From contig JAKVCA010000005.1 in NCBI GenBank assembly GCA_022448315.1, positions 1 to 64,000 of the forward strand: DNA of 64,000 bases, given 5' to 3'. The position numbers were made by a program, and so were the translations under genes. The notes beneath the pieces are model-generated. The model had not been told where the DNA came from and made no database searches. It saw only the letters and a list, made by a program, of their open reading frames with translations. Source of the stretch: Pirellulaceae bacterium. GTDB lineage: Bacteria > Planctomycetota > Planctomycetia > Pirellulales > Pirellulaceae. This document shows positions 5,248-60,979 of the stretch, piece after piece (position 1 is the first letter of the stretch; every line of letters begins with the position of its first letter).

Positions 5248-5880
5248 CTCTGTTGGAAATCGCCCACTTTCCCGAAACGTGTTTTGCGGCCACCCGGCAG
5301 CGACAGCTTGAAGTGGTCGCCGAAACGTCGGTTTTTTTAAAAATCCCCTCGGGTTCAGAGGAATGTCGCAACTCTTCCTCTGGCGTCGGTGTGGCTCTAT
5401 CGAAACCCGACGTCCTGTTTTATAATTCGACGCCGTGGGACTTGGACGAACCCAACGCCACCTGAGGCGTTTTATGGCTCGTCCTTCAGGATGATTGTCA
5501 CCATGGGCGCAAAAAATGAGGGGCCTTGCTCGCCGCGACAAGACCCCTCGGATTTGGCTGCCCGGGCACTGAATAGACAATGTCCGGAGACCCACAGCCA
5601 AGAGAGGATATCGGGTGACCTGACAGCAGACTTTAGTTTTGGAGTAACATCCCTTTAATCGTTACACCTTAACGTAAGACAGTTGGGTTCGTGAGACCGA
5701 GTTGAGTTTGACAGGAAGCTTTGACATCGTTGTTGATTAAAGAGAAGTTCAAAATTTCGCCTCGACGGCCAACCTTCGTGCCAACGCCGCAAACTCTTCC
5801 TCCTCTTGTCCTGCTGTTCAAGTTGCCCTGATCGGGATTCGACAGGGTTTTCATCTTCCAACCAGAGATAAGGACATAAA
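5248..5880. other. Intergenic region upstream of carA
   Basis: These 633 bases hold no convincing gene; short open frames on both strands lack family features and good start signals. The only clear structure is the hairpin at 5518-5549, described separately. The region probably contains the carA leader and promoter. Confidence 0.5.
5518..5549. other. Strong stem-loop in carA leader region
   Basis: Arms GAGGGGCCTTG (5518-5528) and CAAGACCCCTC (5539-5549) pair over 11 positions with one C-A mismatch around a 10-nt loop. An A-run (5511-5516) precedes it, so on the minus strand it resembles a rho-independent terminator. It sits 330 bp upstream of carA, where an attenuator or terminator could act. 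Function is inferred only from shape. Confidence 0.4.
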
Positions 5881-7020
5881 ATGGATCGGGTCGCCAAGCT
5901 TGCTCTCGAAGATGGAACGGTGTTTACAGGCGTTGGATTTGGAGCTGAAGGCGAGGTCTCCGGCGAAGTGGTCTTCAACACGTCGATGACGGGCTATCAG
6001 GAAATCCTGACTGATCCGAGTTACCGTGGACAAATTGTGACGATGACCTACCCGGAAATCGGCAACTATGGGGTAAATCCTGAAGACGTCGAGAGTGGCC
6101 GTCCGCATCTCTCCGGATTCATCTGCAAAGAAAATAGTCGTGTTCGGAGTAACTTTCGATCGACCGAAAGCCTTGAGGACTACCTGACCTCGAACGGAAT
6201 TGTCTCTCTCGAGGGCATTGATACACGAATGCTGGTTCGAAAGCTCCGAATCTCCGGCGCCATGAAGGGCATTCTCAGCACAACGGATCTTGATGACACA
6301 AGCCTGGTCAACAAGGCGAAAAATAGCGAGAGCCTGGTCGGAAAAGATCTGGTTCAAGAGGTCGTGCCGTCTGAAGCTTCACTGTGGAATGAGGCGTTGA
6401 GTGAATGGTGGCAGGTCGAGGCACCAACGGACTCCTCTGAAACCACAACGCCCCACGTCGTCGCCATGGATTTCGGCATGAAATGGAATATTGCAAGGCA
6501 TCTTGTCTCCCAAGGTTTTCGTGTCACGGTGGTCCCAGGGAATACGACGGCCGAAGAGATCTTGGCCATGGAGCCGGATGGCGTATTTCTCTCGAATGGC
6601 CCCGGAGATCCCGAGCCGGTCATTTACGCCATTGAGACCATCTCGGCGCTGGTTGGCAAAGTTCCCCTTTTCGGGATCTGCTTGGGACATCAACTTCTTG
6701 CCCTGGCTTGTGGAGCGAAAACCTTTAAGCTCAAGTTCGGACACCGGGGGGCCAATCACCCCATTTTGAATCTAAGGACAGGCCGCGTCGAAATCACGAC
6801 ACAGAACCACGGTTTCGCCGTTTCTGAGGATGATCTTCCAGAAGAACTGGAAATCACCCATCGGAATTTAAACGATGACACCGTGGCAGGATTGCGGCAT
6901 CGAAACGCACCGGCATTTTGCGTCCAGTACCATCCTGAGGCGTCGGCTGGGCCTCATGATAGTCAGTATCTGTTTGATGAATTCAGAAACCTGATCCGAC
7001 CGCAGGCGATCAACGCGTGA
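5881..7020 (+). CDS. carA: Carbamoyl-phosphate synthase small (glutaminase) subunit
   Basis: CarA hydrolyses glutamine and passes ammonia to CarB for carbamoyl phosphate, feeding pyrimidine and arginine synthesis. The 379-residue product has the CPSase small-chain N-domain (EDGTVFTGVGFG near residue 10, VVFNTSMTGYQEILTDPSY at 30-48) followed by a class I amidotransferase domain. The catalytic triad is Cys267 in FGICLGHQ plus His351 and Glu353 in YHPEAS. NGPGDPE near 240 is the oxyanion-strand motif. carB is not adjacent, which is unusual compared with carAB operons. Start ATG at 5881 gives the standard N-terminus. Confidence 0.97.
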   Translation: MDRVAKLALEDGTVFTGVGFGAEGEVSGEVVFNTSMTGYQEILTDPSYRGQIVTMTYPEIGNYGVNPEDVESGRPHLSGFICKENSRVRSNFRSTESLEDYLTSNGIVSLEGIDTRMLVRKLRISGAMKGILSTTDLDDTSLVNKAKNSESLVGKDLVQEVVPSEASLWNEALSEWWQVEAPTDSSETTTPHVVAMDFGMKWNIARHLVSQGFRVTVVPGNTTAEEILAMEPDGVFLSNGPGDPEPVIYAIETISALVGKVPLFGICLGHQLLALACGAKTFKLKFGHRGANHPILNLRTGRVEITTQNHGFAVSEDDLPEELEITHRNLNDDTVAGLRHRNAPAFCVQYHPEASAGPHDSQYLFDEFRNLIRPQAINA

Positions 7021-7091
7021 ACCCGCACTCGGGTTCGGCAGGTTTGACAACTTGTTTTGCACACTTCACCTCTGCTACAGGGCGTTTGCGA

Positions 7092-8057
7092 ATGAACAAT
7101 CCCTACACCCAAACGCCGGCGTCAAAAGTTGCTGTGCCACAGACGAGTGGGAAAGCGACCGCAACGTTGATTCTTGGACTGTTAAGTCTCGTGTTCAGCT
7201 GCTTGACGGCATTACCGGCGCTGATTGTGGGAATCGTGGCGATCGGCGAAATCAATCGAAGTGAGGGTGCTTTGACGGGTAAGGGGCTGGCGTTTGCCGG
7301 AATGATTTTAGGGGTCATGACCTCGTTGGTGACGGTGGCTTTTGGCGTCATGATGTTTCTGCTTATTGCCCCTGCAGTGGGTGCCGCGCGTGACGCGGCC
7401 CAAACACAGATGCAGAATAACAACATGAAGCAAGTCGGGATTGCCATGCACAATTACCACGATGTCTTCGAGTCCTTTCCATATGTGGGGACAGAGGCGG
7501 TTCCCATGAGTTGGAGAGTCTCCATATTGCCGTATGTAGAGCAAGCCCCACTCTACGAAGAATTCGATTTCTCGGCGACGGCGGATTCAGCGGTCAATGC
7601 CGCTCTAACCAACCAAATGCCAGAGGTTTATGGAACCGTTCTTTTTGCACATGGCTCCTCGCGATCACCCCTGCAGATTCCGATGGCTGCTGGGGCGACG
7701 GAACAACCTCCCGTTGGGGGCTCGCAGGTCTCGCTTCAGTCGAGATTTGGAGGCCCCAACAATGGCCCGGGGACCGTAGGGATGAGCGACTTTCTCGACG
7801 GCGCTTCGAACACGGTCATGGCCGTCCTGGCGAGTCCGGAAACACTCAAATCCTCTTGGATCGAAACGGACTCTGACTATCTGTTCGATCCATCGAACCC
7901 CGCGGCCGGAATGTATGTGACGCCGCGTGGACAGTACCTGGTGCTGATGGTCGATGGTTCGATCAACCGAATCAGTCAGGATATTGATCCCGAGATTCTG
8001 AAAAATCTCATGCTCCGCGATGACGGAAACCTCATTACCGATGATTTCGGATACTAA
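7092..8057 (+). CDS. DUF4190-DUF1559-type membrane-anchored protein
   Basis: A 321-residue protein starting at the ATG at 7092. Residues 20-95 form two or three hydrophobic segments in a DUF4190-like layout (ATLILGLLSLVFSCLTALPA, then IVGIVAIGEINRS with GKGLAFAGMILG). Then comes a planctomycete DUF1559-like part, visible in NNNMKQVGIAMHNYHDVFESFP, SWRVSILPYVEQAPLYEEF, MSDFLDGASNTVM and the C-terminal FVDG-like LMVDGSINRIS. DUF1559 proteins are abundant pilin-like or surface proteins of planctomycetes with unknown role. A GTG at 7017 overlapping the carA stop is an alternative start adding 25 unlikely residues. Confidence 0.8.
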   Translation: MNNPYTQTPASKVAVPQTSGKATATLILGLLSLVFSCLTALPALIVGIVAIGEINRSEGALTGKGLAFAGMILGVMTSLVTVAFGVMMFLLIAPAVGAARDAAQTQMQNNNMKQVGIAMHNYHDVFESFPYVGTEAVPMSWRVSILPYVEQAPLYEEFDFSATADSAVNAALTNQMPEVYGTVLFAHGSSRSPLQIPMAAGATEQPPVGGSQVSLQSRFGGPNNGPGTVGMSDFLDGASNTVMAVLASPETLKSSWIETDSDYLFDPSNPAAGMYVTPRGQYLVLMVDGSINRISQDIDPEILKNLMLRDDGNLITDDFGY

Positions 8058-8616
8058 GAGAAGATAGGACAGCCGGCTCGCGGATAACCGAGCGTCTCTA
8101 CACGGTCACCACACTTATGGGCCATATCCCTCTTCGCGATCCAAACTGCTGCGATCGCGGGAGGTGAACCGCTTGGCGCGATCCTCGAGGCGGCGTCTCG
8201 TTCACGCGATTCAAACCGGTTTTTTCCGGACTTTACCCTAGCAGCGAGTGATCAACTCGCAATTTTCGCCGCGATGCGCAAAACCTGACACGTTTACCCG
8301 TGCATCTTTGTCCTTGGGCGATGGAAGAGTCATGATGTAAAACGCATCCGTGATCAGGTGAGCACTCACGCATGCTCCTTCTCTAGGTTTGACCGGTTCA
8401 TAAACGACTTTTCCGAGGGTAAAATACGGAACGGGTGATGGTTATGGGCACACCCCAGGGAAGAGAGACCACGCACCGTAAAACGCCTCGTCAAAACTTC
8501 GAGTGATTTCCTTCATCGGACGTCAAACGCATTTGCCGGTTTCGTCGTGAGCCTTGTGACGGAAGCAGGCAAAACTGGAAGCTGCCCTGAACCCAAGAGC
8601 GATCGAACAGGTAGAC
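8058..8616. other. Intergenic region between DUF1559 gene and uvrA
   Basis: 559 bases without a supportable gene. It contains the small hairpin at 8244-8260 and presumably the uvrA promoter; no LexA-like palindrome was recognised by eye. Confidence 0.45.
8244..8260 (+). terminator. Possible intrinsic terminator of the DUF1559 gene
   Basis: GCGAGT (8244-8249) and ACTCGC (8255-8260) form a 6-bp stem with a 5-nt loop, followed by AATTTT. The stem is short and the T-run brief, and it lies 187 bp past the stop codon, so this is only a weak candidate. Confidence 0.3.
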
Positions 8617-11523: not shown

Positions 11524-12996
11524 CTAAGGCGAGCGGGTGGATGCAATGGCATCCGACTTTGGCGGTCGCTGGAGAATGTTGGAGATAATCTGACTCGGTC
11601 TCCCCGCCGTCAAGTGTTGTTCCTGCCCGTTGTGGAAATAGACCAGTTTGGAGTGGTCCAGACCAAACTGCCTCAGGATAGTCGCTTGATAGTCATTCGG
11701 GGTCACCACATTCTCGACCGCCTTGTGCCCAAACTCATCTGTGGCCCCGTAGGTCATGCCTCCTCGAATTCCACCTCCGGCAAGCCAGGTAGAAAAACCC
11801 TGTCCGTTGTGGTCGCGACCAACGGTCTTTGGGTCGCCATGGTTCTCGGTCACTGGAAGTCGACCAATCTCTCCCCCCCAGTGAACCAAGGTGGTTTCCA
11901 GCAGTCCCCGTTGCTTGAGGTCTTTGACCAATGCGGCACTTGGCTGGTCGGTTCGCTTACAAACGGAGGTCAAATTCTTCTGGATATGATTGTGGTTGTC
12001 CCATGGTTGGCCGCCCAAGAAGAGCTGAACAAATCGAACGCCCCGCTCAACCAGACGACGTGCGATCAAACATCGTTTGCCGTATTCTTCGGTTTCGGGT
12101 TGATCGATTCCGTAAAGTCGAAGTGTCGCCTCGGTTTCCTGGCTGATATCGAGCGCCTCTTTGGCGGCCACCTGCATGTTGGCTGCCATTTCGTAACTGG
12201 CGATCCTCGCCTCGAGATCCACCTCACCCGCGTGCTGCTGCAAATGGCGTTGGTTGAGGAAGTTCAATAGCTCAAGGTTCTGTTCCTGGAGTCCATCACG
12301 GAGACGTTGCGGAGGGTCAAGATTCAGAATACGAGGTTCTTTTGCCCTCAACACCGTCCCCTGAAAAAGAGGTGGCATCCAACCGCTGGACCAGTTGTGG
12401 GTTCCATCAACAGGGTGTCCACCAGGATCAGAAAGGACCATGTAAGCCGGAAGTTCCCGAGTTTCGCTGCCCAGTCCGTAGACCAGCCATGAGCCGAGTG
12501 TTGGCCGCCCCGTAATCGCCGGAATGCCAGCGTGCATGTAGCGAATCGAAACCTCGTGACCATTGAATCCCGTGTGCATCGACCGAACGACGCAGATATC
12601 GTCGGCAATCGACCCAATGTGCGGGAGGAGTTCCGAGACCTCTGTACCGCACTCGCCTCGGTGGGAGAATTTCCAGGGACTGCCCAGCAGTTTTTTACTC
12701 GCGCGATTCACAAAGCTGTATTTCACATCACCCGAGTAATCTTCTCCGGAGCGTTTCTGCAGTTCAGGTTTGGGGTCCAGCAGGTCCATGTGCGAAGGAC
12801 CTCCATGCATGAACAATGAGATCATTGCATTGGCCTGAGGCTGAAAATGAGGATCTTTCAGAGACAGATCGAACTGCCGTAGACTGCGAGGGGCATCTCC
12901 GGGATTGGCACGAGCATGGTCCTCGTTCAAGAGCCAAGCCAATGCCATGGATCCAATTCCCATCGCGTTTTGGGCCAAAAAGGATCGACGGTCCAT
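11524..12996 (-). CDS. DUF1501 protein with Tat-like signal
   Basis: 490 residues, starting at the ATG at 12996 that follows GAGGA at good spacing; longer upstream starts give an implausible N-terminus. MDRRSFLAQNAMGIGSMALAW is a twin-arginine-type leader. The body has family features: MISLFMHGGPSHMDLLDPKP, SELLPHIGSIADDICVVRSM, GRPTLGSWLVYGLG and a C-terminal TLVHWGGEIGRLP...DHNGQGFSTWLAGGG. DUF1501 proteins are related to the alkaline-phosphatase/sulfatase fold and are encoded with PSCyt1 cytochromes in planctomycetes. It is the second gene of a pair with 13100-16207, 103 bp downstream. Biochemical role unknown. Confidence 0.88.
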   Translation of the reverse strand: MDRRSFLAQNAMGIGSMALAWLLNEDHARANPGDAPRSLRQFDLSLKDPHFQPQANAMISLFMHGGPSHMDLLDPKPELQKRSGEDYSGDVKYSFVNRASKKLLGSPWKFSHRGECGTEVSELLPHIGSIADDICVVRSMHTGFNGHEVSIRYMHAGIPAITGRPTLGSWLVYGLGSETRELPAYMVLSDPGGHPVDGTHNWSSGWMPPLFQGTVLRAKEPRILNLDPPQRLRDGLQEQNLELLNFLNQRHLQQHAGEVDLEARIASYEMAANMQVAAKEALDISQETEATLRLYGIDQPETEEYGKRCLIARRLVERGVRFVQLFLGGQPWDNHNHIQKNLTSVCKRTDQPSAALVKDLKQRGLLETTLVHWGGEIGRLPVTENHGDPKTVGRDHNGQGFSTWLAGGGIRGGMTYGATDEFGHKAVENVVTPNDYQATILRQFGLDHSKLVYFHNGQEQHLTAGRPSQIISNILQRPPKSDAIASTRSP

Positions 12997-13099: not shown

Positions 13100-16000
13100 T
13101 TACTCGACGTACAAAAATTCGTTACTTCCCAACAGGTTCTGGCAAAGGCTGATCAAAGCCTGCTGAAGGGCACTCGACGGATTCTTCGCCTGGGAATCGT
13201 GTTTGACCTGCTGTTTCAACCACTGGGTTACATGATCGAACTCGTCGATCTCTGGCGCTCGCTGGTAGGCGAGCCACCACGCGAGGATGACCTGTTTTTC
13301 AATGGACGATGCGTTCGGGCCCTGGAAGTCTGTGTCCGATTGCCACTTCAGATCGGCACCGGAACTTTCGAGAGTCACGGGCCAGCGGAAGCTGTCGAAG
13401 CTTTGCTCGCCTCGACTGTCCACAACAAACGCGATTTCTTCACCCGCCACGACATGCGTATCCACGTGGGTTGTCAACTCCTGATTGTGAGTGACAAACT
13501 CTCCGAGCAAGCCAACGCGACTGGAGTAGATTCGACCTCGTACACCATTACCCTGATCAGAACCGTGGCTGAGTTTGCCCTCGATCCTAAGCTGCCCGTC
13601 AATACCAGCCCGCCATTTTCGGATCACTGCCAGTTCGGCGTCGGGATGGCCACCCTGCGCGTTCAGCGTGCACCATCCCAAATTCGTATCGGGGAGTTTT
13701 TCGCCTCCTTGCCAACTGGACCCTGTCCAGTGAGGCAGGGGTTCGAAGGAAAACCCACTCTCTTCCTCTTTGCCGAATCCATAGCTCCATGGCGATTGAA
13801 TTTGCTGCAATGCGGAATCTTTGCGAGGGACCTGATCTTCTGGAATCTGAGCTTCTGCGTCTTCGGCGATTCGTTCCGCCATGAGCTTGGCCTGATCGAG
13901 CAGGAATTGGCTATTCAGCAGCATCAGGGACTGTGGGGCGACCGTGGCGTGCACGCGCCGATCGCAGTTGGTTTCCATAATCGGGGCGTCGAAAGCTTGG
14001 AGAAAAGCGACTGGCTGGGAACGGCGAACCTGCAGGTAGATGCTTCGACGTGTGTCTTGTGTGGCGACAACCTGACCGGTGTCGTCCTCCTTCAACGAAA
14101 CTGACGCCCCAAAAAGCGTCTGATCGAGTTGGCCAGAGGCCGTCAGGATTTTATCTCGGATGATTTCGGCTTCGAGTCGGCGAACCGGATAACGCCAGAG
14201 CCATTGATTGTCCTGATCCACTTCGGCTGATTTCGCGTCAATCTGGGACTGTTGGCGGTAGGTGTAGCTGTGGACGATCAATCGGTGAAGGTGCTTGAGG
14301 CTCCAACCTTGATCCGCCAGTTCGCAAGCAAGCCAATCCAGTAATTCTGGATGAGTCGGCCGTTCACCCAAGTTGCCAAAATCGCTGGGAGTTCCGACGA
14401 TGCCCCGACCGAAATGGTGCATCCAGATGCGATTAACAAAAACACGGTTGAAGAGGGGGTGCCGCCCTGAGGTCAAAGATTTCGCCCACGACAGTCGGCG
14501 GCCCGAGGTCGATCGATCCGGATTGTTTGCCTCCAGATCCGCTCGTTGGCCCTCGTCGTATAAAACCGTGGCTTCACCCGGAGCAACAGCTCGGACCGGC
14601 TGCCGGTAATCACCCCGGTAAAACAGTTGCGTTTCGGGCTGGGAATTGGCGGGTTCGACCAAAGCTCGCAGGAAACGTTCCGGTGGTTTCTTGGCCCGGA
14701 TTTCCGCAATTTTTGTGTCGTAGGTTTTAAGATCATCGGCGGCGGCCTGATTGTATTGGTAAAGGACGCCCGGACTGATATTGACACTCGGATTTTTGTC
14801 GAGCAACGCCTTTTGTTCGTCCGTTCGATCTTTGGCGGCGGTCTCATAGGCGAGTTTCAACTGCTCACGCAGGGGCTCGTCATATTTTTCGAGTTCTTTG
14901 GCTAACGCTTCTGCCATGTAGACCTTCTGTTTTTCACCTTTTTCTTTGGCCACCGTTTGAGCCTCGCTCTCAATCTCTGCGGCACGCTTTCGGTCCGAAT
15001 CCGTGTAGAGCGAAACTTTTCTTTGGTTCGGGTTTTTCCACGCCTGTGCATCGAGTGCCGGTTCGAAAATGGCACGAAGACGGTAGTAGTCTTCTTGAAG
15101 AATGGGATCATAGCGATGGTCATGACATTGAGCGCAGGCAAAGCTCAGCCCCATCAAGCTCGTCGATACAATTTTGAGTGAGTCGGCGATCGTCTGATTT
15201 CGTGCGAGCGGTTCATCCACACCCCCTTGGCCCGTCCCATCTGCCGCCATGCGGAGGAAACCAGTTGCGGCAAGCAACTCGATCTGCTCCGCGTCAAGAT
15301 TGTCGTGAGGCGGGGAAACCAGTTCATCCCCGGCCAGTTGTTCGACGATGAACTGATCAATGGGTTTGTCAGCGTTCATCGAACGGATCACGTAGTCGCG
15401 GTAGTGATAGGCCCATTGCCGAGGTTGATCCGCATTGGTGAAGCCTTCGCTATCGGCGTAGCCAGCGGTGTCCAGCCAATGACGTCCCCAGCGTTCCCCG
15501 TAGTGCGGTGATTCAAGCAACTTATTCACCCAACGCGTGTAGGCATCAGGTTGGTCATCCTTGATGAATGCTTCCAGAGCTTCGCGGGAGGGGGGAAGGC
15601 CCGTCAAGTCGTAGGCCACGCGAATGGCGAGTGTTCGCCGGCTCGCTTCCGGGGACCAGTCCAACTGATGCTCGCGAAGGCGAGCCAGAACAAAGCGGTC
15701 GATATCATTGACAATCCTTGGATCGTCCACCGATGGCGGCGAGGGACGCGTCAAGGTTTGGAAGAACCAGAAGGATCGTTCTTCGGGAGTCAAGCCAATT
15801 CCATCCGGAATCTGCTCGGGTTCAGGCCGAGCCGTCTTCGCACCCTGCTCAATCCAACGGATCAAAATGTCGGTATGCTCCGTGGAAACTTTGGCGGACC
15901 CAGGAGGCATCTCGTGGTCTTGGATTCTCTGAATCAGAAAGCTGTCTTCTGCATCACCCGGAACAATGGCCGGACCCGAATCTCCCCCTGAGATCTGACG

Positions 16001-31853: not shown

Positions 31854-32318
31854 TTAGGCGGGTGAGTAAGGAAGGTGCGAATCGTGGAGCACGATCTTGA
31901 GTTGGCCCTCGGTGTTCACCGTGTAGCCGAACGAGTACTCCACTTTAACCACATCCCCACCCTCGGCGGGCGTGAAGAAATAGTTGCCCATGGCAACACC
32001 CATATTGCCAATGATTTTAGTTCCGACACCCTGCCACTCAACGTGGGACCAAGGCTTGATGGCGAATCCATGATCCTCAGGATAGTCGCTGTTGCCTCCG
32101 ACGAAATATGAGAGTGCACCGTCGAAGTCCAATCGGAACTGTTTCTGACTGCAAAGCGTTGGCTTAAACAGCACCGAGCCCTCTTGGTAGTTGTAAAACT
32201 CGTTGATGTGGCTCTCTGCGGCCGCCCGGTAATCACCCTTGTCAAGGAACACCTTACCAATCTTCACGATCCCTTGTCCCCAGGCTTGCTGAGCGTCCAA
32301 AATCAATTGTTCTTGCAT
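31854..32318 (-). CDS. NTF2/SnoaL-like protein (often mislabelled phosphoribosyl-AMP cyclohydrolase)
   Basis: 154 residues from the ATG at 32318, chosen because AGGAG lies 7 nt upstream. It reads as one alpha+beta NTF2-like domain: a first helix AQQAWGQGIVKIGKVFLDKGDY, then VLFKPTLC, a segment FDGALSYFVGG, the strand VAMGNYFFTPAEGG and the closing LKIVLHDSHLPYSP. I recall close homologues in marine bacteria that databases often name phosphoribosyl-AMP cyclohydrolase; it lacks the HisI cysteine/histidine metal site, so that name is probably wrong. No signal peptide. Ligand and function unknown. Confidence 0.72.
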   Translation of the reverse strand: MQEQLILDAQQAWGQGIVKIGKVFLDKGDYRAAAESHINEFYNYQEGSVLFKPTLCSQKQFRLDFDGALSYFVGGNSDYPEDHGFAIKPWSHVEWQGVGTKIIGNMGVAMGNYFFTPAEGGDVVKVEYSFGYTVNTEGQLKIVLHDSHLPYSPA

Positions 32319-32647
32319 GTTGATGCTCCTGTTCATGCGGGTTCTTTTTGGTGCAGAACAAACGACGTACCATAGGTCAAGCCGCTATTATTCAAACGCA
32401 GGCCGAATTCGCAACACCTTGTCAAATCGTAAGATTGAATGAGGGTGTGAATCCCCACTGGGACCTTCAGAGATTCGCTTGACTTGGAAAATTCGTGCAT
32501 GACGTCATCAGTGTTTGTCGTTCGCAACTCCGAATTTTTCGAGACATCCCTGAGGATGATCCTAGTGGTAAACACCCTCTTGTGAGGTCTCTCCGTTGAA
32601 GCTGAAACATGTATCCACGGTGGGTGCGAAAATTCAGTACGGAGATT

Positions 32648-32848: not shown

Positions 32849-33276
32849 GGAGGGGACTCCTCGGCTTTGTGACCCGCTTGCACCGAGCGGAATGTAGAAA
32901 AAGACAGGGGTGGGTTTTCAGATGATCTCTGTACCTATGATGAATTGGATCGTGGTCTAGTATGGCGTTAAATGCAAAATGATTGCAAGTGATGTCCCGC
33001 GTTTGTCCGGGGGGCAGGTAATGATCGACCGCTGGGAAGCCGATCCATATGAAGGAGAATTCCCCCGTTGACGGGGAAGAATCGTTACAAACTGCCCACC
33101 TCCATGAAAGGGACTCGCAGGTTACCCATTCCGGGTGAGAAATTTACGGTACTTGGCGACTTGCGATTATCATATCCGCGTATCAACCTACCGCGGTGGC
33201 CCTCGATCCGACGAACCGATCGCGATTATTGTTCGTAGCATAAGACACATTCGTGCTTCTTTTCGGAAACCCGCGT
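32849..33276. other. Divergent regulatory region
   Basis: 428 bases between the FmdB-like gene and the NicO-type transporter gene, holding the Zur-box candidate at 32969-32988. No gene seen. Confidence 0.5.
32969..32988. promoter_or_regulatory. Candidate Zur operator (copy 1)
   Basis: TAAATGCAAAATGATTGCAA contains the inverted half-sites TGCAA and TTGCA separated by 5 nt. It matches the site beside the zur gene at 39807-39826 at 19 of 20 positions. On the minus strand TTGCAA followed 18 nt later by CATACT could be a -35/-10 pair for the FmdB-like gene, so bound regulator would block it. Confidence 0.65.
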
Positions 33277-33984
33277 ATGCATTCACATGAACTGACTCTG
33301 GGATTGGCATTTGGCCTTGGGGCATTGCATGCCTTGGAACCCGGTCACGGCAAGACAGCGATGTTGGTTTATCTTTCCGGCGAGCGACGAAGCATTCTTC
33401 ACCCGATAATTATGGGGCTTTCCAGTGCAACTTCACATTCGGCTTCGTTGATTGGAATTGCAGCGGTCGTCCATCTGACGCATCACTTGGTTACCCAGGA
33501 CCATCAGCACGGAGGTCAGGCGGTCACTCGGGGAATGCAGTGGGTCAGTGCCTTGCTGGTATTGACTGTCGGCCTCTGGATGGCATGGCGCGCTTGGAAA
33601 CCCAAGTCAAAAGCATGTGGCTGTCGAAGCCATGCGACGTCACTTGACTCGCAAAGGGTGCCCCATTCCAAATCCAGTCGCGAAAGTTACTCGATGAGCG
33701 CCATGCTCGGGGTCGCCTTTGGATTGCTGCCTTGCCCATCAGCGATGGCGGCTTACTTTTCGAGCATATCTACGGGAGCCCCGGTAGCAGCTTACTTGGT
33801 GATTGGTCTCTTTGCCGCCGGAATCGCTTCTTCTCTGACGCTGGTGGGGATTTGCGTGCAAATATTTGGGGAGAAAATGCCTCAAGCGGGGCGATTCTCG
33901 AGTCTCCCTTGGCCGTGGATTAGGGCGAGCCTGATCGTCGGGCTCGGAGTTTTCTATCTAGTTCGCACTGCGACACTGTCGTGA
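33277..33984 (+). CDS. NicO-type nickel/cobalt transporter family membrane protein
   Basis: 235 residues from the ATG at 33277 (an upstream GTG at 33253 is possible). About six hydrophobic segments. The opening LGLAFGLGALHALEPGHGKT (residues 8-27) is the NicO/RcnA-family signature, with the His/Asp-like metal motif in HALEPGHG. A His-rich loop HHLVTQDHQHGG and a Cys/His loop ACGCRSHAT could gather metal. A second GVAFGLLPCPSAMAAY repeats the first-helix motif, with LPCP typical of the family. RcnA members export nickel and cobalt, others import. It stands between the Zur-box region and the zinc locus, so a metal other than nickel is possible. Confidence 0.82.
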   Translation: MHSHELTLGLAFGLGALHALEPGHGKTAMLVYLSGERRSILHPIIMGLSSATSHSASLIGIAAVVHLTHHLVTQDHQHGGQAVTRGMQWVSALLVLTVGLWMAWRAWKPKSKACGCRSHATSLDSQRVPHSKSSRESYSMSAMLGVAFGLLPCPSAMAAYFSSISTGAPVAAYLVIGLFAAGIASSLTLVGICVQIFGEKMPQAGRFSSLPWPWIRASLIVGLGVFYLVRTATLS

Positions 33985-34071: not shown

Positions 34072-35307
34072 TCAGTTGCTCTCCCCTGCAACTCGTGCTG
34101 CAAGCACTTCTTCAAGGGGCATATTCCATTTGGGGAAGGGATCCTTGTAGCCCTGCCAGTTTTCAATTCCCGATGCGATCTCGTCATCGGTCAGGAGGCA
34201 TCTTTCGAGTTCCTCTTTCAGTTTCGCTTCATTCATCTCGATGCCGATGAAAACCAGTTCCTGTCTGCAGTCACCCACCTCGGGATGCCATTTTTTCTCA
34301 AGTTCCAACTGAAAGGGAGTCGCCGTTGGCCAATGTTCTTTTGGAACAGCAGCCCACCAGAAGCCACCAAAATCGAGTCGTGCGACGCGACCGGCTTGAG
34401 ACCAAACGCCAATTTTATCGAGTCGGGTCGCCAGCCAGAAAAAACCTTTGCTGCGCAAAACACCATCCCATGACTGATTTAAACGCTCGAAAAAACGTAG
34501 CGGATGGAAAGGCCGCCGTGAACGGAAAACAAAGCTCTTGACGCCATATTCGTCCACTTCACTGGCTCCCTCTTCACGGAGAGTGAGCTGCCAGCCTCGG
34601 CTCTGTTTGGCAATCTCGAAATCGAATCGCCCGGTTCCCATGATTCGCTCGGACTCAATTTTTCCAAACGAGGAACGCAACTTGAGTGCATAGGGATTGA
34701 GTTGATCGATAAAGCCCTCGATGGTTTCCAAGGTTTTTTGATCGACCAGATCGGTTTTATTCAGGACGATCACGTTCGCGAATTCGACCTGTTCCGTCAG
34801 AAGGTCGGCGACCGTGCGCGGATCATCTTCGGTCGCCGCCTGATCGATACTCTGCAGGTCTTTACCGATTCGAAGGTCCTCCAGAAAGTTGGCCGTGTCG
34901 ACGACGGTCACCATGGTGTCCAGGTCAGCCATTTCCGAGAGTGCGGTGCCATTGCCCACGGCGAATGTGAAAGTGTCCGCGACGGGGGCTGGTTCCGAAA
35001 TTCCTGTTGATTCGATCAAGAGATAATCAAACCGACCGTCTCTCGCCAGTTCGGCGATTTCCGCAACGAGATCTTCCCGAAGTGTGCAGCAGATGCATCC
35101 ATTGGTCATCTCGACCAACTTCTCTTCGGTCCGACTCAACGCCGCCTCACCACCGACGATCAATTGCGCATCGATGTTGACCTCGCTCATGTCGTTGACA
35201 ATCACCGCCACTCGAAGTCCGGCTCGATTCGAGAGAACGTGATTCAGTAACGTTGTCTTTCCTGCACCCAGAAATCCAGACAGTACGGTGACGGGAAGTT
35301 TCTTCAT
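34072..35307 (-). CDS. COG0523 (CobW/ZNG-like) metallochaperone GTPase, copy 1
   Basis: 411 residues from the ATG at 35307, preceded by GAGG. It has a G3E GTPase domain: Walker [10 protein letters not shown] (11-19), the metal motif [12 protein letters not shown] (CICC at 71-74), [11 protein letters not shown] and the guanine motif LNKTDLV near 220. The C-terminal CobW_C domain runs from about 300 (RRPFHPLRF). COG0523 proteins deliver zinc or other metals to enzymes, and one subgroup is controlled by Zur under zinc shortage. It is the last gene of the seven-gene metal operon. It is closely similar to the first gene of the operon at 38398-39669. Confidence 0.92.
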
Positions 35308-35323: not shown

Positions 35324-35761
35324 TCAAATATCGATGAAGTGTTTGAGCGAGCGGCAGGGATTTTTTTCCCACGATCTGAGGCCGAGGAAACGCCAGGCAG
35401 CAGCATTTTTATCCGCAGCGACAAACGGCCGAAGCCAGGTTGTGACACAATCTCGACGGCACGCAATGCCGAAGCCCCACAGAGAGAGGTGGAGTTGGGA
35501 CTTGTGTGAACGGTAGCAGGTCGAGCGGAGGTCATCGCCACGACCCCGGTGGCGATCAAAGCTATATTTCATCAGCAAATTACCTTGCGGCGACTCCACA
35601 TCCGTTCCCCAGCACCAGAGTTTTTGTGCCATAAGTTTCTGTCCAAAACGGCCAAAGGTGGGCGGGATGCACCAGCCTTGGCCAGCCCGAGAGGCAGGAG
35701 ATTCATGAGTCGCGTGAGCCTCAGTTGCGGTCAAAACGCGGACTCCCGATCGCTTGTGCAA
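35324..35761 (-). CDS. WCWG-motif protein B, unknown function
   Basis: Up to 145 residues from a TTG at 35761 that overlaps the preceding gene by 41 bp; the true start may be downstream. I recognise no known family, but it is clearly related to the neighbouring product of 35721-36365: both share the pattern WCWGxDxxxPxGNxL, then SxxY and a GFGI segment. Protein B has several extra cysteines (STCYR, ACRRDC) and lacks the C-terminal 90 residues of protein A, ending soon after the shared domain. It lies 16 bp before the COG0523 gene. The similarity to A is the main reason to believe it is real. Confidence 0.6.
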
Positions 35762-36365
35762 AAGTGGTTGTTTCTGCCTGATTCCCTGCTTTGAACTCCG
35801 TGTGAAGACGTCGCCACGCTGAGGTCATTGCCTCAACCGGAATGATCTTGCGTTTTCCATTGTCCCACGCCTTGAGGGTCGATCTGCGATACTCCATTCC
35901 AAGTTGCTCCACGATCGTTACCTCGTAATCGTGAATCCACTCGAACAGATCAAGGATCAACGAGAGGCATGCGCTCTGTTGTAGTGGAGTGGGCGATTGC
36001 ATTTTGGGCAAGTTCTCTTCGGACCAGAGGAGGCGATCTAGTCTCGACTGAGTCGTGAAGAGGGGATCGAACCCGAATCTCGAAAGGTAAACACCGCCGA
36101 TCTGCCGATTCCCGAAGAAAATACCGAACCCACGAAGGACGATGTTTCTCTCTCGCGGGAGGTTGCAAAAATACACGCTCGACCCATCTTGGTACTCCGG
36201 TGGCGGTTCAATCCTTTGGAAGCCAAGTTGAACCAGCCAATTGCCCTCTGGCCGGAGAATGTCCTGTCCCCAGCACCAGGTTTGCTGGCTAAGGAGCGTT
36301 GCCGCGTATTCTGTCAGGCAGGTTTCGGAGTTCGGCCACGGCTCAGAGGCCTCCGCATGTGACAT
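35721..36365 (-). CDS. WCWG-motif protein A, unknown function
   Basis: 214 residues, ATG at 36365, one base after the stop of the preceding membrane-protein gene. No signal peptide or membrane segment. The N-terminal 100 residues hold TWCWGQDILRPEGNWL (29-44), SVYFCNLPRERN and LRGFGIFFG. This block is shared with protein B at 35324-35761. The C-terminal half is helical (LILDLFEWIHDYEVTIVEQLG), followed by a basic YRRSTLKAWDNGKRK. No catalytic motif is recognised. The position within a Zur-linked operon suggests a role in metal shortage, but that is only context. Its family appears undescribed as far as I can tell. Confidence 0.72.
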   Translation of the reverse strand: MSHAEASEPWPNSETCLTEYAATLLSQQTWCWGQDILRPEGNWLVQLGFQRIEPPPEYQDGSSVYFCNLPRERNIVLRGFGIFFGNRQIGGVYLSRFGFDPLFTTQSRLDRLLWSEENLPKMQSPTPLQQSACLSLILDLFEWIHDYEVTIVEQLGMEYRRSTLKAWDNGKRKIIPVEAMTSAWRRLHTEFKAGNQAETTTFAQAIGSPRFDRN

Positions 36366-36366
36366 C

Positions 36367-36654
36367 TCAATCTGTCCTGTTCGGGAAGATCACTGCCACG
36401 TTGGCGATAAGCCAGCATGATGCGGCGATCAACTGGAGCCAGTCTCCGGGGGAGGTGATGCCATAGGCGAACACGCTAGCGATCCAGCAAAGACTGGCGA
36501 TGGTCTGACCTAGCCATTCCAGCTTCAGGAACCTTGAGGAGTGAGTCGTTCCGAATTCTTGGCTGACGACAGATTCACTTCGCTCCGTATCGACCGAAAC
36601 CACCGAAAGCGTATCTTCGGTCGATTTTTCCTGAGCATTCAACATGTAGAGCAT
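36367..36654 (-). CDS. Small two-helix membrane protein
   Basis: Up to 95 residues; ATG at 36654 or 36645, overlapping the end of the flavoprotein gene. After a polar N-terminus of about 45 residues come two hydrophobic helices, LGQTIASLCWIASVFAYGI and WLQLIAASCWLIANVAVIF. These resemble the two halves of a PQ-loop/SemiSWEET-like or YgaP-type small membrane protein, but no family is assigned. It is tightly packed in the metal operon between the flavoprotein and WCWG protein A, one base from the latter. Confidence 0.65.
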   Translation of the reverse strand: MLYMLNAQEKSTEDTLSVVSVDTERSESVVSQEFGTTHSSRFLKLEWLGQTIASLCWIASVFAYGITSPGDWLQLIAASCWLIANVAVIFPNRTD

Positions 36655-37763
36655 TCCTCTCCACAGCAGGAAAGGTCATCGAGGTACATGCCCCAGTCCC
36701 TGTATTTGTCGAGTTCTTCTGCGGGTAATTCAAGGGAGGTCGCAATGGCTTTGGCCACAACAGCGAATCTCTGGCGATACTTGTAGATAAAGCAAAATAC
36801 GTGGTGCTTATGTCGAACAGAAGGTCCACACAGAAAAAGGCCCGGGACGATCGTTGACTCGTCATTTTCGTTGAGTAAGGGAAAGCCGTCTTCGCGTTTT
36901 TCGAATAGGTCCGGGATCAACTTGTGACTGCCGTCAAAGCCACTTGCAAGAAGAGGTTGCTCCTCAGTCATGAACGTGAGGCCACTCTCCGTTTCAATTT
37001 GGAAACCCTGATCGGAGGGCTGGACTCCGGTGATGGTCGTCATGGGGTGCAGTTCTACGTGTTCACGAAACCGCCGGTCCCGCATTCGCTCCAACGAATA
37101 GGTTGACAGTGCGACACTCGGGTCAGAGCTCTCGCTTTCCCATGGACATTCACGGTCAATCAATCGCACTGCCTTGCCTCGTCGGGCCAAATGGTAGGCG
37201 GCGTCGACGCCACTTTCGTATCCTCCGATCACAACAAAGTCGTCGCCCTCGAGCTCTGCGTAGCTCTCAACCGTAGCGGTGTGTCGGCAATGTTCGCTCC
37301 CGCTCAAGCTGGCGACAGCGGGATACTGGAACTCGCCAGCAGCCCAGATCACATGTGTGGCCCTCAAGGTCTCTTCATCAGTGTCAATACAAAAATCATC
37401 ACCAATTTTGGTCAGCCGTCTTACCTGGCTCTTCTCGCGGATGGGCAGTTCAAAGAATTGAGCGACGCCTCGCAGATGGGCTGCATATTCACGACCGTTG
37501 GGATGCTCGACGCGAAGACTGTATGCGGGAGAAATACCAATCGCGATGGAGTTCAGGTCGAGCATACCAATCGAGTTGGTCGCGAACGATGGCGTGATGA
37601 AGCGGGTCTCCGCGGGCCATGCGTCAAACGATGCGCCGACTTGATCTCTCTCAAGGACAACAAAGTTTTCAATGCCGGCATGTCTGAGGGCGATGGCGAC
37701 GCCAATTCCGGCGGCGCCGCCTCCAATGATGACGACGTCAAATTTCTCGGAACCTTGAATCAT
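36639..37763 (-). CDS. FAD/NAD(P)-dependent oxidoreductase with Cys-rich tail
   Basis: 374 residues from the ATG at 37763, after GGAGG and overlapping the MerC-like stop as ATGA. The FAD-binding motif VVIIGGGAAGIGVA is at 10-23. A second Rossmann motif FVVIGGYESGVDAAYHLA (177-194) would bind NAD(P)H. ATHVIWAAGEFQYP (136-149) and a late GLFLCGPSV are typical of flavin monooxygenase or thioredoxin-reductase-like enzymes; no CxxC redox pair lies in the core. The final nine residues, CCGEECSTC, form a likely metal-binding tail. In this operon it may reduce a metal or a metal-thiol complex, or help metal transfer. Substrate is not known. Confidence 0.82.
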   Translation of the reverse strand: MIQGSEKFDVVIIGGGAAGIGVAIALRHAGIENFVVLERDQVGASFDAWPAETRFITPSFATNSIGMLDLNSIAIGISPAYSLRVEHPNGREYAAHLRGVAQFFELPIREKSQVRRLTKIGDDFCIDTDEETLRATHVIWAAGEFQYPAVASLSGSEHCRHTATVESYAELEGDDFVVIGGYESGVDAAYHLARRGKAVRLIDRECPWESESSDPSVALSTYSLERMRDRRFREHVELHPMTTITGVQPSDQGFQIETESGLTFMTEEQPLLASGFDGSHKLIPDLFEKREDGFPLLNENDESTIVPGLFLCGPSVRHKHHVFCFIYKYRQRFAVVAKAIATSLELPAEELDKYRDWGMYLDDLSCCGEECSTC

Positions 37764-38401
37764 GCCAAGTTCCTCCCAGTGAAAGTAGTCTTGGTATCTG
37801 GGCAACAACCATTGATACAACCGAGTCGATGATTTGCAATGTGAGCAAAGACGAGAGTGATACCACCCAAGGGCGTGATCCAGGGAAGGAACGCTCCAAA
37901 GAGCCCGGCGGTCTTGGAGTCAGAAGCTGCAGGAGTTGGTTCAACGCATTCTACTTCCGAGGGGCTTTCGCAGTCTGGACAGCAGGCTTCCTCGCTGACG
38001 GCCAAGTTGGGCTGCGGCGGTTCTTCGCACGAGGGGCAGCATTCGCCTGCCCAGCCGAATGCAGCGACCGAAAGCATCGAGACACCAACCCCACCAATCA
38101 TCAAGGGCTTGAAACTTCCATGCTTTCGCAAGCCTGGAAGAAACGCGGACAACGCGATGATGAAACAGGAGATCGCCATCGCTTGGTGGAATGATTCGCC
38201 GGCCAGGAAGCTCTGGCCCAATGCCGGCAAATAGGCGATGACAAATGGCATGGCCGCACAGTGAATCGCACAGCCTATCGATGCCAGCATGCCTAGCCCG
38301 TCGGTCCATGCCACCCATCGCGGTCGGAGTCCGAGTTTGGGTGAATCCGAGGGTGCACTGGAAAGGGAATCTGTCGCGGTAACGAATGGATTCGTGGTCA
38401 T
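37760..38401 (-). CDS. MerC-like membrane protein with extra cysteine clusters
   Basis: 213 residues, start overlapping the preceding GTPase stop as ATGA. The MerC motif [19 protein letters not shown] covers residues 37-55 (Cys44, Cys48). Four hydrophobic helices are visible. Beyond the family core it has cysteine pairs in a large polar loop, CCPSC (121-125) and CCPDC (140-144), and a terminal GCINGCC (194-200). Classical MerC imports mercuric ions in mer operons. There is no merA, merR or merT here, and the neighbours are zinc-type GTPases, so it more likely carries zinc or another thiophilic metal. Confidence 0.82.
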
Positions 38402-39669
38402 TGGGGGACCTCCTCAGATTCGGACTCATCCGTCTCAATTTCGATTGCGGGGAGTGGATCCTCAAAAAGGGCCCATGCTTCGGGCCCCTGTGAAAATTCC
38501 AAGTCCGTCACGAGGCACCGATCCAGAATGCCCTCGACCCGCTGCTGATCGAGATCCTGACCGATAATGACGACCTGTTGGTGTCGATCACCATGTTCAC
38601 CGGAAAAACCAGACCGGAGTTCCGCAATTTCAGCTTCATCATCCGGCCACTCTTCTTCGGGCGCGGCCGCCCACCAAAAACCCGCCGGGTTCATGCGGAT
38701 GGAACATCCGGCCTGTGACCAATCGAAGGCCCAGTCATTTCGCGAGGCGATCCACATCAGGCCTTTGCTACGCAGGATATCACTGAACAGTCCACTCTCC
38801 ATGTCATCGCTAATCAAATCATTGAGTCGTTTCGGATGGAATGGACGATCTCGCCGGTAGACGAAACTCGATATTCCATACTCGTCGGTTTCTGTTTCTT
38901 CTTGCCCCCTCGGTACCGCCAGCCATTCTGGCATCTGTTCGGCCTCTGAGAGTTGAAAACGTTGGGTTCCCAAGACTTCGTTGAGAGGGACTCGACTCTC
39001 AGTGGAGTGCAAGATCTCCGCAGTAGGGTTAAGTTGTCGAAGTATCTGGTCGAGTTGCTTAAGCTGTTGTGGGGTGACAAGGTCGGTTTTGTTCAAAACG
39101 ATCACGTTGGCAAATTCCACTTGGTCGACGAGTAGATCGACGATATTTCGATCGTCTTCGTCGCTCAAGCCCATCCGTCGATCTGTCAAATCGTCCCAAG
39201 AGCTGAAATCCTTCATGAAACTGCCTGCATCGACCACGGTGAGCATCGTGTCCAGATCAGCCACTTGAGCAAGGCTACTGCCGTCCTCGTCCTCGAACGT
39301 AAAGGTTTCGGCTACCGGGAGGGGCTCACTGATGCCAGTGGATTCAATCAAAAGATAATCGAATCTTCCCTGTCGCGCGAGTCGGGACACTTCTATGAGC
39401 AGGTCTTCCCGTAGTGTGCAGCAGATACAGCCATTGGTCATTTCCACCAATTGTTCTTCGGTCCGGGATAACCCGGCGTCGCCGTCACGCACCAAGGTCG
39501 CGTCAATGTTGACTTCACTCATGTCATTAACGATCACTGCCACTCGCATGGACTCTCGGTTGGCGAGGATGTGGTTGAGAAGAGTGGTTTTTCCAGCCCC
39601 TAGGAAGCCGCTGAGCACGGTGACGGGGAGACGTTTTTGGTCTGGGGGAGAGGTGGCGTTATCGAGCAT
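38398..39669 (-). CDS. COG0523 (CobW/ZNG-like) metallochaperone GTPase, copy 2
   Basis: 423 residues from the ATG at 39669; earlier in-frame starts add a nonconserved 105 residues. Walker A is GFLGAGKTT (21-29), the metal motif CICC is at 81-84 in [12 protein letters not shown], then [11 protein letters not shown] and LNKTDLV. The CobW_C domain begins at DRPFHPKRL. An acidic C-terminus ([14 protein letters not shown]) replaces the usual His-rich tail. It is the first gene of the operon and lies directly behind the candidate Zur box at 39807-39826. It differs from the copy at 34072 by a longer N-terminus and an acidic tail, suggesting separate client proteins. Confidence 0.92.
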
Positions 39670-39806
39670 GGACTTCCGTGGGTCCTCAGTGAATTTTCTT
39701 TGAATTTCTGAAACCCGCGATGCGAACGCCCATGGGTCTGTTTGAACCAGCTGACCCTGAACAGTTTTAGACAATTCGCAGCGTAGGAGAAGTCGAAATT
39801 TGACTG

Positions 39807-39826: not shown

Positions 39827-39976
39827 TAAGGGTTGGGGGTTGTTGTTTTTCTGGCTATGATACCCGAGGCGTGTGGGCTTTCTCGTATTGAATCGAAGGT
39901 CAAATCGTACCAGAATGGTCCGATGCGTCCAGTAATTCCGAAACCGCCGCTGCAGCCACCTTTGGGCAGACTCTTC

Positions 39977-40408
39977 ATGACCAATCAAACCAATGAACCA
40001 GATTGGGCTCGAACCGCGATTCAGGAGTCAGGATTGCGGGTGACCATGGCACGGATGGCAACTTTGGAGGTCCTGAACACCGCTTCCATGCCCCTGACGC
40101 ATGCCGAAGTTTATCAAGCTCTGCAGGGACGTGGATTTGACAAGGCGACGGTGTTTCGAAATCTGAATGACCTCGTGTCGGTCGGGTTGTTGCGTCGCTC
40201 GGAATTGGGGGACCACGTTTGGCGGTTTGAGCTTATTGCCAACGGTGAACATCCGGATGCACATCATCCGCATTTTGTTTGCGTCGATTGCGGAACGGTC
40301 TCCCGCCTGGATGAGATCGAGTTGAGTCGAAAGAGCAAGTCGACGAGCGATCAGATTGGCAAAGTGACGGAAATCTTGTTGCGGGGGCACTGCCACGAGT
40401 GTGCATGA
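39977..40408 (+). CDS. zur: Fur-family regulator, probably zinc-responsive (Zur)
   Basis: 143 residues from the ATG at 39977. The winged helix is evident: [28 protein letters not shown] and the recognition helix [18 protein letters not shown] (55-72). The dimer domain holds a structural zinc site CVDC (Cys102/105) and CHEC (Cys139/142), and a His-rich sensing segment [11 protein letters not shown] (90-100). Fur, Zur, PerR and Mur share this outline. I favour Zur because it faces two COG0523 GTPases and a MerC-like protein, and because its own box recurs near an FmdB protein without its zinc ribbon. PerR or Fur is less likely but cannot be excluded. Confidence 0.83.
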
Positions 40409-60085: not shown

Positions 60086-60979
60086 TTAAAGAGAGTTTAA
60101 GTGCGCGATGCTCTGACCAATACTCTGAATTGGGTCGGGTGACTGATCCTGCTCCACGTGGCATTGTTCGACACCAATCGTTTCGGCAACTTTCATCACC
60201 TTGGCCATGTCGATGGATCCGCTGCCCAGTTCCTTAAAGGCATCATGGGGAACCTGCCCTTCGTCATAGAAAACTTTGGTGCCAACCTTAAGGTCCTTCA
60301 AATGCACCTGCGAAACGCGACCCTTGAGGCGTTGCAGTGTTGCACACGGATCCCAGCCCCCAATCTGGGCCCAGAAGACATCCAGTTCAAACTTGCAGTT
60401 TTCAGGGTCAAATCCCTCCATGAGTAAATCGAATCCCGTTTTGTCGCCTTCGAGCTTTTCGAATTCGAACGCGTGGTTGTGATAACACAACTGAATATCG
60501 GACTTCTTGCACATCTCACCAAATCGGTTTGAACGCTCGATGTACGCTCGATACTGATCGCCGGTCTGACGGAACTTCTTGCCGATATAGCCGAAGACCA
60601 GATGTTTCACCCCAAGTTTTTCAGCATCTTCGACCAACGTTTCAAGCGAGGGGGCATTTTTGTTGGTTGGATTGCAAATGGATTGCCAGTCGACGAATGA
60701 GGAAGTCATTTTCAGCCCAAGGTCTTCGCAGATGGTCTGAAGTTCAAGGCCTTGGTCAACGCCCCCAAACTCGACCTGGTAATAACCGGCGTCGGCCACC
60801 GACTTCAATGTTCCCGGCTGGTCCTCGGCCAACTGATTGCGGACGGTCCACAGTTGCAGTCCGATTGTGGCTTTGTATTTTGAGTCGGCAGGAATGGCCA
60901 TCAGCGGGCGAGTCAAACTGGCGGTCAACGCGGCGGAACTCGCAATCGCGGTGGTCTTGATAAAATCACGTCGTCTCAT
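60086..60979 (-). CDS. Tat-exported sugar phosphate isomerase/epimerase-like protein
   Basis: 297 residues. The leader MRRRDFIKTTAIASSAALTA is a twin-arginine signal, so the folded protein is exported. The TIM barrel follows: ATIGLQLWTVRNQLAED, GYYQVEFGGVD, HLVFGYIGKKFRQTGDQY, LCYHNHAFEFE (metal His and Glu), FELDVFWAQIGGWDP (metal Asp) and VSQVHLKDLKVG. Its metal ligands look complete, unlike those of the protein at 1098. Exported members of this family are numerous in planctomycetes and probably act on sugars outside the cytoplasm. Exact reaction unknown. Confidence 0.86.
   Translation of the reverse strand: MRRRDFIKTTAIASSAALTASLTRPLMAIPADSKYKATIGLQLWTVRNQLAEDQPGTLKSVADAGYYQVEFGGVDQGLELQTICEDLGLKMTSSFVDWQSICNPTNKNAPSLETLVEDAEKLGVKHLVFGYIGKKFRQTGDQYRAYIERSNRFGEMCKKSDIQLCYHNHAFEFEKLEGDKTGFDLLMEGFDPENCKFELDVFWAQIGGWDPCATLQRLKGRVSQVHLKDLKVGTKVFYDEGQVPHDAFKELGSGSIDMAKVMKVAETIGVEQCHVEQDQSPDPIQSIGQSIAHLNSL

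Follow-up and report, generated by a model that had tools for sequence, protein, structure and literature searches.

A WCWG protein family encoded with COG0523 GTPases in probable zinc-starvation operons of planctomycetes and other phyla

Proteins with a WCWG block form a family, here called W, that is often encoded near COG0523 genes; in the genome analysed here the two share a conserved operon behind a rare palindrome. Judged from the present searches, W is a so far undescribed part of what is probably a zinc-starvation regulon. The window, which is the whole stretch of 64,000 nucleotides of a Pirellulaceae genome that was analysed, carries two W genes in such an operon. One, of subfamily A (W-A), is apparently intact, and the other, of subfamily B (W-B), lacks an internal segment (Table 1). 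Most work on zinc-starvation operons concerns Proteobacteria and Bacillota. The components of these operons are for the most part transporters, COG0523 GTPases and duplicates of familiar enzymes. W is a conserved part of zinc operons that is nameless in the libraries searched and is found in bacteria, in archaeal records and in named strains, and it comes with a concrete operator-like motif. What the COG0523 GTPases serve in the W-bearing phyla becomes testable.

The gene row of the window

The genes of the minus strand follow one another in an operon-like order: ZigA-like gene 1, MerC, FAD oxidoreductase, TM95, W-A, W-B and ZigA-like gene 2. A Fur-family gene, presumed to encode Zur, diverges from this row. 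The COG0523, MerC and Fur neighbours bear out the metal operon that had been proposed in a sequence-only reading of this DNA. Both GTPases belong to COG0523/CobW, as they have the P-loop, the CxCC motif and the cobW and CobW_C domains. Their scores are just below the curated ZigA cut-off of 600 bits (NF038288), hence the term ZigA-like.

The FAD oxidoreductase, which we take to be CzcO-like, may have its true start at an ATG near 37763. Its closest solved chain, 3d1c, is a putative flavin-containing monooxygenase. The flavoprotein ends in SCCGEECSTC (window 36642-36671) and similar CC...C tails occur in three relatives; this tail is perhaps a redox or metal site. The Fur-family gene perhaps starts truly at the ATG at 39977.

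Table 1. Positions of the genes and sites of the window discussed in the text
Feature	Position	Strand	Basis
W-family subfamily A protein (W-A), 214 aa, apparently intact	35721..36365	-	ORF; full-length homologues; AlphaFold model
W-family subfamily B copy (W-B), internally deleted	35324..35734, frame open to 35761 (145 aa)	-	Alignment of relatives; B clade
Deletion junction in W-B	35465..35466	-	Comparison with six relatives
ZigA-like COG0523 GTPase 2	34072..35307	-	cobW 2.3e-55, CobW_C 7.7e-24; NF038288 583.2 bits
ZigA-like COG0523 GTPase 1	38398..39675	-	cobW 1.1e-56; NF038288 595.4 bits
TM95, 95 aa, two hydrophobic stretches	36367..36654	-	ORF; hydropathy
FAD oxidoreductase	36639..37820	-	Pyr_redox_3 7.4e-96; closest solved chain 3d1c 5.5e-70
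MerC-domain protein	37760..38401	-	PF03203 3.2e-20
Fur-family regulator, presumed Zur	39833..40408	+	PF01475 4.5e-16
Iota-carbonic anhydrase	31854..32336	-	7c5x 1.2e-88
NicO/DsbD-like membrane protein	33253..33984	+	PF13386 1.6e-10, PF03824 5.7e-9
Putative Zur box ATGCAAATTGATTGCAA	39810..39826		Between divergent Fur gene and ZigA-like gene 1
Second putative Zur box ATGCAAAATGATTGCAA	32972..32988		265 bp before NicO-like gene, 636 bp before iota-carbonic anhydrase gene

Relation of the two products and search for a known family

W-A and the product of the short frame share the WCWG region (WCWGQDILRPEGNWL in one product, with its counterpart in the other), an SxxY element (STCY in one) and GFGI, as had been claimed. 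BLASTP aligns the two over 64 residues with an E of 2e-9. A search of the own genome (5.03 Mb) with W-A retrieves the short copy at E 2.5e-5 and, up to an E of 10, no third W place. The W family profile, which was grown iteratively from the same loci and from the W-A query, matches W-A over the whole core (3.7e-72, positions 2-168 of 169). The short frame is matched by this profile at positions 2-63 and 137-169 only, with i-E values of 1.9e-20 for the N-part and 0.001 for the C-part. Profile-profile comparison of B with A, which had been named as a check, gives a probability of 99.9% and an E of 5e-35. Judged from these comparisons, the relation of the two products is far above chance and they are true paralogues.

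The claim that they match no known family also holds for Pfam, NCBIfam, PADLOC and PHROGs, none of which gave a naming match. With 37 W members the best values were 0.14 in Pfam and 0.017 (one member) in PHROGs, and PADLOC gave no match up to 1; with 82 members the best NCBIfam value was 0.072. No convincing solved chain was found in PDB sequence searches with W, and plasmid records gave no match at E 1e-3. No description of the W family was recognised in the literature on COG0523, Zur and ZigA operons, as judged from titles and the beginnings of abstracts.

The internal deletion of W-B

According to the sequence-only reading, the short product had lost its C-terminal half and gained cysteines. 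Instead, the C-terminus is present and the middle is missing. Window W-B tracks its relatives from GQGWC to SLWGFG. The next block in it corresponds to GLAYRRECV of the relative L055, from where it continues to the end. In comparison with six of six relatives, 228 bp are missing, that is 76 codons, in frame; a short GGNNT likeness is found on both sides of the junction. A frameshift as the origin of the short copy is ruled out by the gap of 228 bases in all six comparisons and by the C-terminus, which continues in frame. The cysteines are not gains since they sit in the GWC, STC and RxC blocks, which intact B proteins also carry. Four residues that are identical in 82/82 rows of alignment A2, namely R96, W143, Y147 and E148 in the numbering of A, have their counterparts in the missing stretch. 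The likely start of W-B is the TTG at 35734, from which the gene overlaps the end of W-A by 14 nt; the 13 relatives shown all have an ATG at or near that place.

Two whole W genes stand in tandem at 12 loci (L047-L058), in each of which B is whole, and at L059 B is found without A beside it. The 13 B proteins of L047-L059 align end to end. Compared with the B protein of genome G157, the remaining parts of window W-B show 57% and 62% identity. W-A, whose full-length homologues reach an identity of up to 58%, is 58% identical to the A protein of the same genome. The rest of W-B is thus no more diverged than W-A, which indicates that the loss is recent or that the piece is still kept. Short W-B is probably a pseudogene in the making, its function lost. 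It serves as a caution: what looked like a specialised paralogue is most simply explained by damage to the gene.

Two other explanations of the short copy have to be weighed. The 228-bp gap could be an error of the draft assembly, the real B gene being whole. The draft consists of 126 contigs, the genome is the sole one of its genus among those compared and the remaining B sequence looks conserved; however, there is no run of N at the junction and damaged W copies are also found in other lineages, and we consider such an error improbable. The other explanation assumes that A and B form a heteromer in the tandem genomes and that short B is still a working, shortened subunit here. The adjacency of A and B in 12 loci, the in-frame nature of the deletion and the limited divergence of the remaining piece would fit, but the lost part holds invariant residues, the start is TTG where relatives have ATG, and A or B is alone in many loci. 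As a whole, this explanation is in our estimate very improbable. Since the conserved residues fall in the lost stretch, a working A-B heteromer is unlikely in this genome, while in relatives with two whole copies it is possible. Each subfamily is found alone in other phyla, so that the family in general cannot depend on a heteromer.

Irregular W copies were recorded in several other places. A TGA interrupts W-A in G130 (contig 76), and G147 has only a C-terminal W piece. At L061 (G110), a C-terminal B-like piece (13257-13607) and the A copy lie on opposite strands, some 4 kb apart. B is in two overlapping frames at L111 (8634-9460), the second W copy of L100 is cut by the contig end, and decayed or split copies are also present at L084 (7642-7977) and L069 (7912-8529). 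L100 and L111 belong to the set of 80 loci described below, which in part comes from the genomes that also supplied L047-L059.

Distribution and tree of the family

The family is patchy: W is present in 32/149 genomes of the sample of the window's family, in 21/196 of the order sample and in at least 11/294 of the phylum sample, for which up to 11 candidates per genome were scored, these samples being overlapping and including the own genome. The W-A protein alone, searched against genome contigs, gave 85 stretches, none of which was confirmed as a relative. Alignment A1 as the query gave 210 stretches. Of these, 147 proved to be relatives, and the best 80 of the 147 are the loci counted below. 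The best 80 of 147 come from Planctomycetota, Nitrospirota, marine archaea, Poribacteria, Chloroflexota (including Ktedonobacter) and Rubrobacter. Among the carriers are Rhodopirellula solitaria, Neorhodopirellula pilleata, Thalassoglobus neptunius, Ktedonobacter racemifer and Rubrobacter taiwanensis. Because the loci were selected by QQxWCWG[RQC], the conservation of the QQxWCWG stretch is partly built in. Several of the archaeal records are metagenome bins, in which stray contigs are possible. L135 and L153 bear names that we take to be of the single-cell kind, and L135, an archaeal record, nests among planctomycetes in the tree.

In a quick tree of 88 rows, 15 of the 85 inner branches are starred and 35 are open. 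The B clade comprises 16 rows (100, starred) and is joined with single copies of Chloroflexota, Poribacteria, Rubrobacter and one Gemmataceae (97, starred). Window B belongs to it: although it fills 38% of the columns, it lies within sets of 13 (99, starred) and 16 (100, starred) rows. The A side goes with Nitrospirota and archaea, is not starred (89), and includes window A in no starred set; three planctomycete rows fall outside both sides. The split between A and B, with other phyla on each side, suggests that the two are probably old subfamilies. The earlier picture of adjacent diverged copies of one duplicated component is not supported by this comparison, in which the tree places both in subfamilies that are found alone in other phyla. 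A recent tandem duplication was likewise left unsupported by the quick tree, in which A and B belong to separate subfamilies. A Poribacteria contig (L160) has two very similar W genes, 2152-2745 and 6026-6619, a few kb apart.

Predicted structure and conserved residues

An AlphaFold model of W-A, obtained with 82 rows, has a pLDDT of 88.9 and a pTM of 0.85. In the model, one helix is followed by a group of short strands and these in turn by several helices. No structural relative that would indicate the activity of W was found among PDB chains, VIA and BFVD. Foldseek against the PDB gave no confident match (best E 0.11), the best hit of the VIA structure search had a Z of 5.3 (73 aligned, rmsd 2.8; absence from the VIA list excludes nothing) and the best of the BFVD viral models had an E of 0.084. 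Mom-like, polo-box-like and bacterioferritin-like folds were rejected, their values being in the range that the tools call common.

A set of polar and aromatic residues is conserved in W, namely Q27, D35, N42, Y65, R96, W143, Y147, E148 and R160. C31 is kept in 81/82 rows, so that a metal or thiol role is possible. Beyond this one Cys there is no conserved His/Cys set, and no well-filled column of the 82 rows has His above 30%. A polar and aromatic set of this kind, without a His/Cys set, would be more in keeping with a function that needs no zinc than with a zinc protein. As judged by eye, W has no signal peptide. In L085 and L086, two more distant members, even the WCWG block is altered.

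Neighbours of W and co-occurrence with ZigA

In several phyla the neighbours of W include ZigA-like COG0523, MerC, Fur, ZnuA and the flavoprotein. The best 80 of 147 loci consist of 41 from Planctomycetota, 9 from Nitrospirota, 15 from Chloroflexota, Poribacteria, Rubrobacter and Gemmataceae (hereafter Chloroflexota-type) and 15 archaeal ones. A ZigA-like gene is near W in 34/41 planctomycete, 7/9 Nitrospirota and 12/15 Chloroflexota-type loci, and in 0/15 of the archaeal loci. It is also present in all 12 tandem loci (L047-L058), some of the genes being partial. ZnuA is found in 11/15 Chloroflexota-type and 1/15 archaeal loci and in none of the other 50, while a ZIP transporter is near W in 5/9 Nitrospirota and 1/15 archaeal loci. 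Iota-carbonic anhydrase is a neighbour in 4/15 archaeal loci and 1/41 planctomycete loci, TM95 in 30/41 planctomycete, 6/9 Nitrospirota and 4/15 archaeal loci, and the FAD oxidoreductase in 4/15 archaeal loci. Eight zinc-linked probes were used: ZigA, MerC, Fur, ZnuA, ZnuB, ZIP, iota-carbonic anhydrase and one small protein that we take to be DUF1636-like. At least one of them is near W in 35/41 Planctomycetota, 8/9 Nitrospirota, 15/15 Chloroflexota-type and 6/15 archaeal loci, or 64/80 together. None of the eight is present at 16/80 loci, some of which are on short contigs; 9 of the 15 archaeal loci are of this sort.

Co-occurrence with COG0523 genes, which the sequence-only reading had suggested as a check, is pronounced. 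Over 149 genomes, 30 have both W and ZigA, 2 have W without ZigA, 28 have ZigA without W and 89 have neither (Fisher p 3.3e-13, the genomes being related and not independent). That is, ZigA is present in 30 of the 32 W genomes versus 28 of the 117 others. ZigA is within 8 kb of W on 25 of the 33 W-bearing contigs, among the matches listed. The number of ZigA matches per genome ranges from 0 to 4, which makes it unlikely that W and ZigA are adjacent by chance.

At L163, a small protein with SEPGCPPIETVI is encoded at 12141-12449. Its cluster is found in 8/15 Chloroflexota-type loci, and it gave no match to Pfam up to 0.1.

The palindrome and the regulator

An operator-like palindrome, TTGCAA-N5-TTGCAA, stands before the operon and is a putative binding site of Zur. 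The motif was drawn from 9-mers common to the regions before ZigA genes; the top-scoring dyads before 88 ZigA genes were too varied for use. The 400-bp regions before ZigA in the 41 Planctomycetota loci number 38, and 14 of them contain it with at most one mismatch. Its density is 0.92 per kb there, compared with 0.043 per kb elsewhere in these loci. Spacers of 4 and 6 and five other palindromes were absent from these 38 regions, and CAATTG-N5-CAATTG occurred in 3. When two mismatches are allowed, the motif is mildly commoner (278 places) than with other spacers (114-191) or than CAATTG-N5-CAATTG (174). At three mismatches there is no excess in the window, 30 sites versus 32 expected. One-mismatch sites number three in the window (39810, 32972 and 60672) versus 0.13 expected. 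The copy at 60672-60688 lies inside a coding ORF (60086-60979) and is probably due to chance.

The spacer and mismatch tests were run on sequences that overlap those of motif discovery, and the count over the whole genome is the cleaner test. The pattern WTGCAA-N5-TTGCAW, which was widened to the letter W at both ends after the sites had been seen, has 8 places in 5.03 Mb, and its reversed control has 0. Three of the eight are at the W operon, in the gap between the iota-carbonic anhydrase and NicO-like genes, and before a second ZigA-like pair. This pair, which is without W, is on contig 83 (L187, G000) at 5663-8159, with the palindrome at 5514 just before it. The other five sites (at L183, L184, L185, L186, and at 13133 of L187) have no evident zinc gene by ORF reading, and each overlaps some ORF, whether genuine or not. 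They may be chance copies or unrecognised members of the regulon. The iota-carbonic anhydrase perhaps belongs to the regulon of the W operon; the second putative box is nearer to the NicO-like gene than to the carbonic anhydrase gene.

In comparison with solved chains, the Fur-family protein matches Fur (7e-11) and PerR (9e-9) better than FurB/Zur (1.8e-4). The assignment of zinc as the signal is therefore based on the neighbours.

Possible role of W

The following scheme can be proposed. The divergent Fur-family gene would encode the Zur repressor, which would leave the palindrome as zinc falls. W would then be made together with the two ZigA-like GTPases, MerC, the flavoprotein and the small membrane protein. 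Most likely it would act without bound zinc, either as a zinc-sparing enzyme or as a partner of the flavoprotein/TM95 module. In this joint reading, W-A is probably a cytosolic protein made at zinc shortage with a zinc-free job of its own and short B is probably functionless; we lean slightly towards it.

W could instead have the ZigA-like GTPase as its supplier and be its client: it would be a metalloprotein that receives scarce metal from this GTPase and binds it through C31, D35, E148 or Y147. COG0523 proteins are held to act on clients, according to PMC13339975. Such a role agrees with the position of W close to ZigA in Planctomycetota, Nitrospirota, Chloroflexota and Poribacteria, with the presence of ZigA in 30 of 32 W genomes and with the conserved D, E, Y and C31. 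It is weakened by the archaeal loci, which have no ZigA nearby, and W has no conserved His. The 28 genomes that have ZigA without W, of the 149, argue against the client role and against the zinc-sparing reading alike. A client role seems to us possible, though unlikely. The zinc-free function of W-A, made at zinc shortage, is the reading that we prefer. In a broader version of it, W would have a new fold and would act in the response to zinc starvation of six groups (Planctomycetota, Nitrospirota, Chloroflexota, Poribacteria, Rubrobacter and marine archaea), either as an enzyme without zinc or as a factor that allocates metal, with ancient A and B, a heteromer in some planctomycetes and TTGCAA-N5-TTGCAA as the Zur operator. 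With all these parts taken together, it is doubtful.

Comparison with known systems

Some iota-carbonic anhydrases work without metal. The iota-carbonic anhydrase of the window (compare 7c5x and 7c5v) flanks the second putative box, and the enzyme recurs in 4/15 archaeal W loci; W itself, however, showed no kinship with it in PDB sequence searches.

The ZepA system (PMC10957091) likewise involves Zur-linked genes near COG0523 in Planctomycetota and Nitrospirota. Unlike W, ZepA is an exoprotein with a signal peptide, and a W-like protein is absent from the available sections of that account.

A parallel in gene content can be drawn with the Zur-regulated COG0523 (YciC) clusters, as set out in Haas et al. 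2009 (PMC2770081). In contrast to W, which matched no family searched, those clusters carry paralogues of known zinc enzymes, among them HisI, PyrC, gamma-carbonic anhydrase, HemB and DksA. In both cases COG0523 GTPases share a neighbourhood with a regulator of the Fur family, with genes for zinc uptake and with an alternative carbonic anhydrase.
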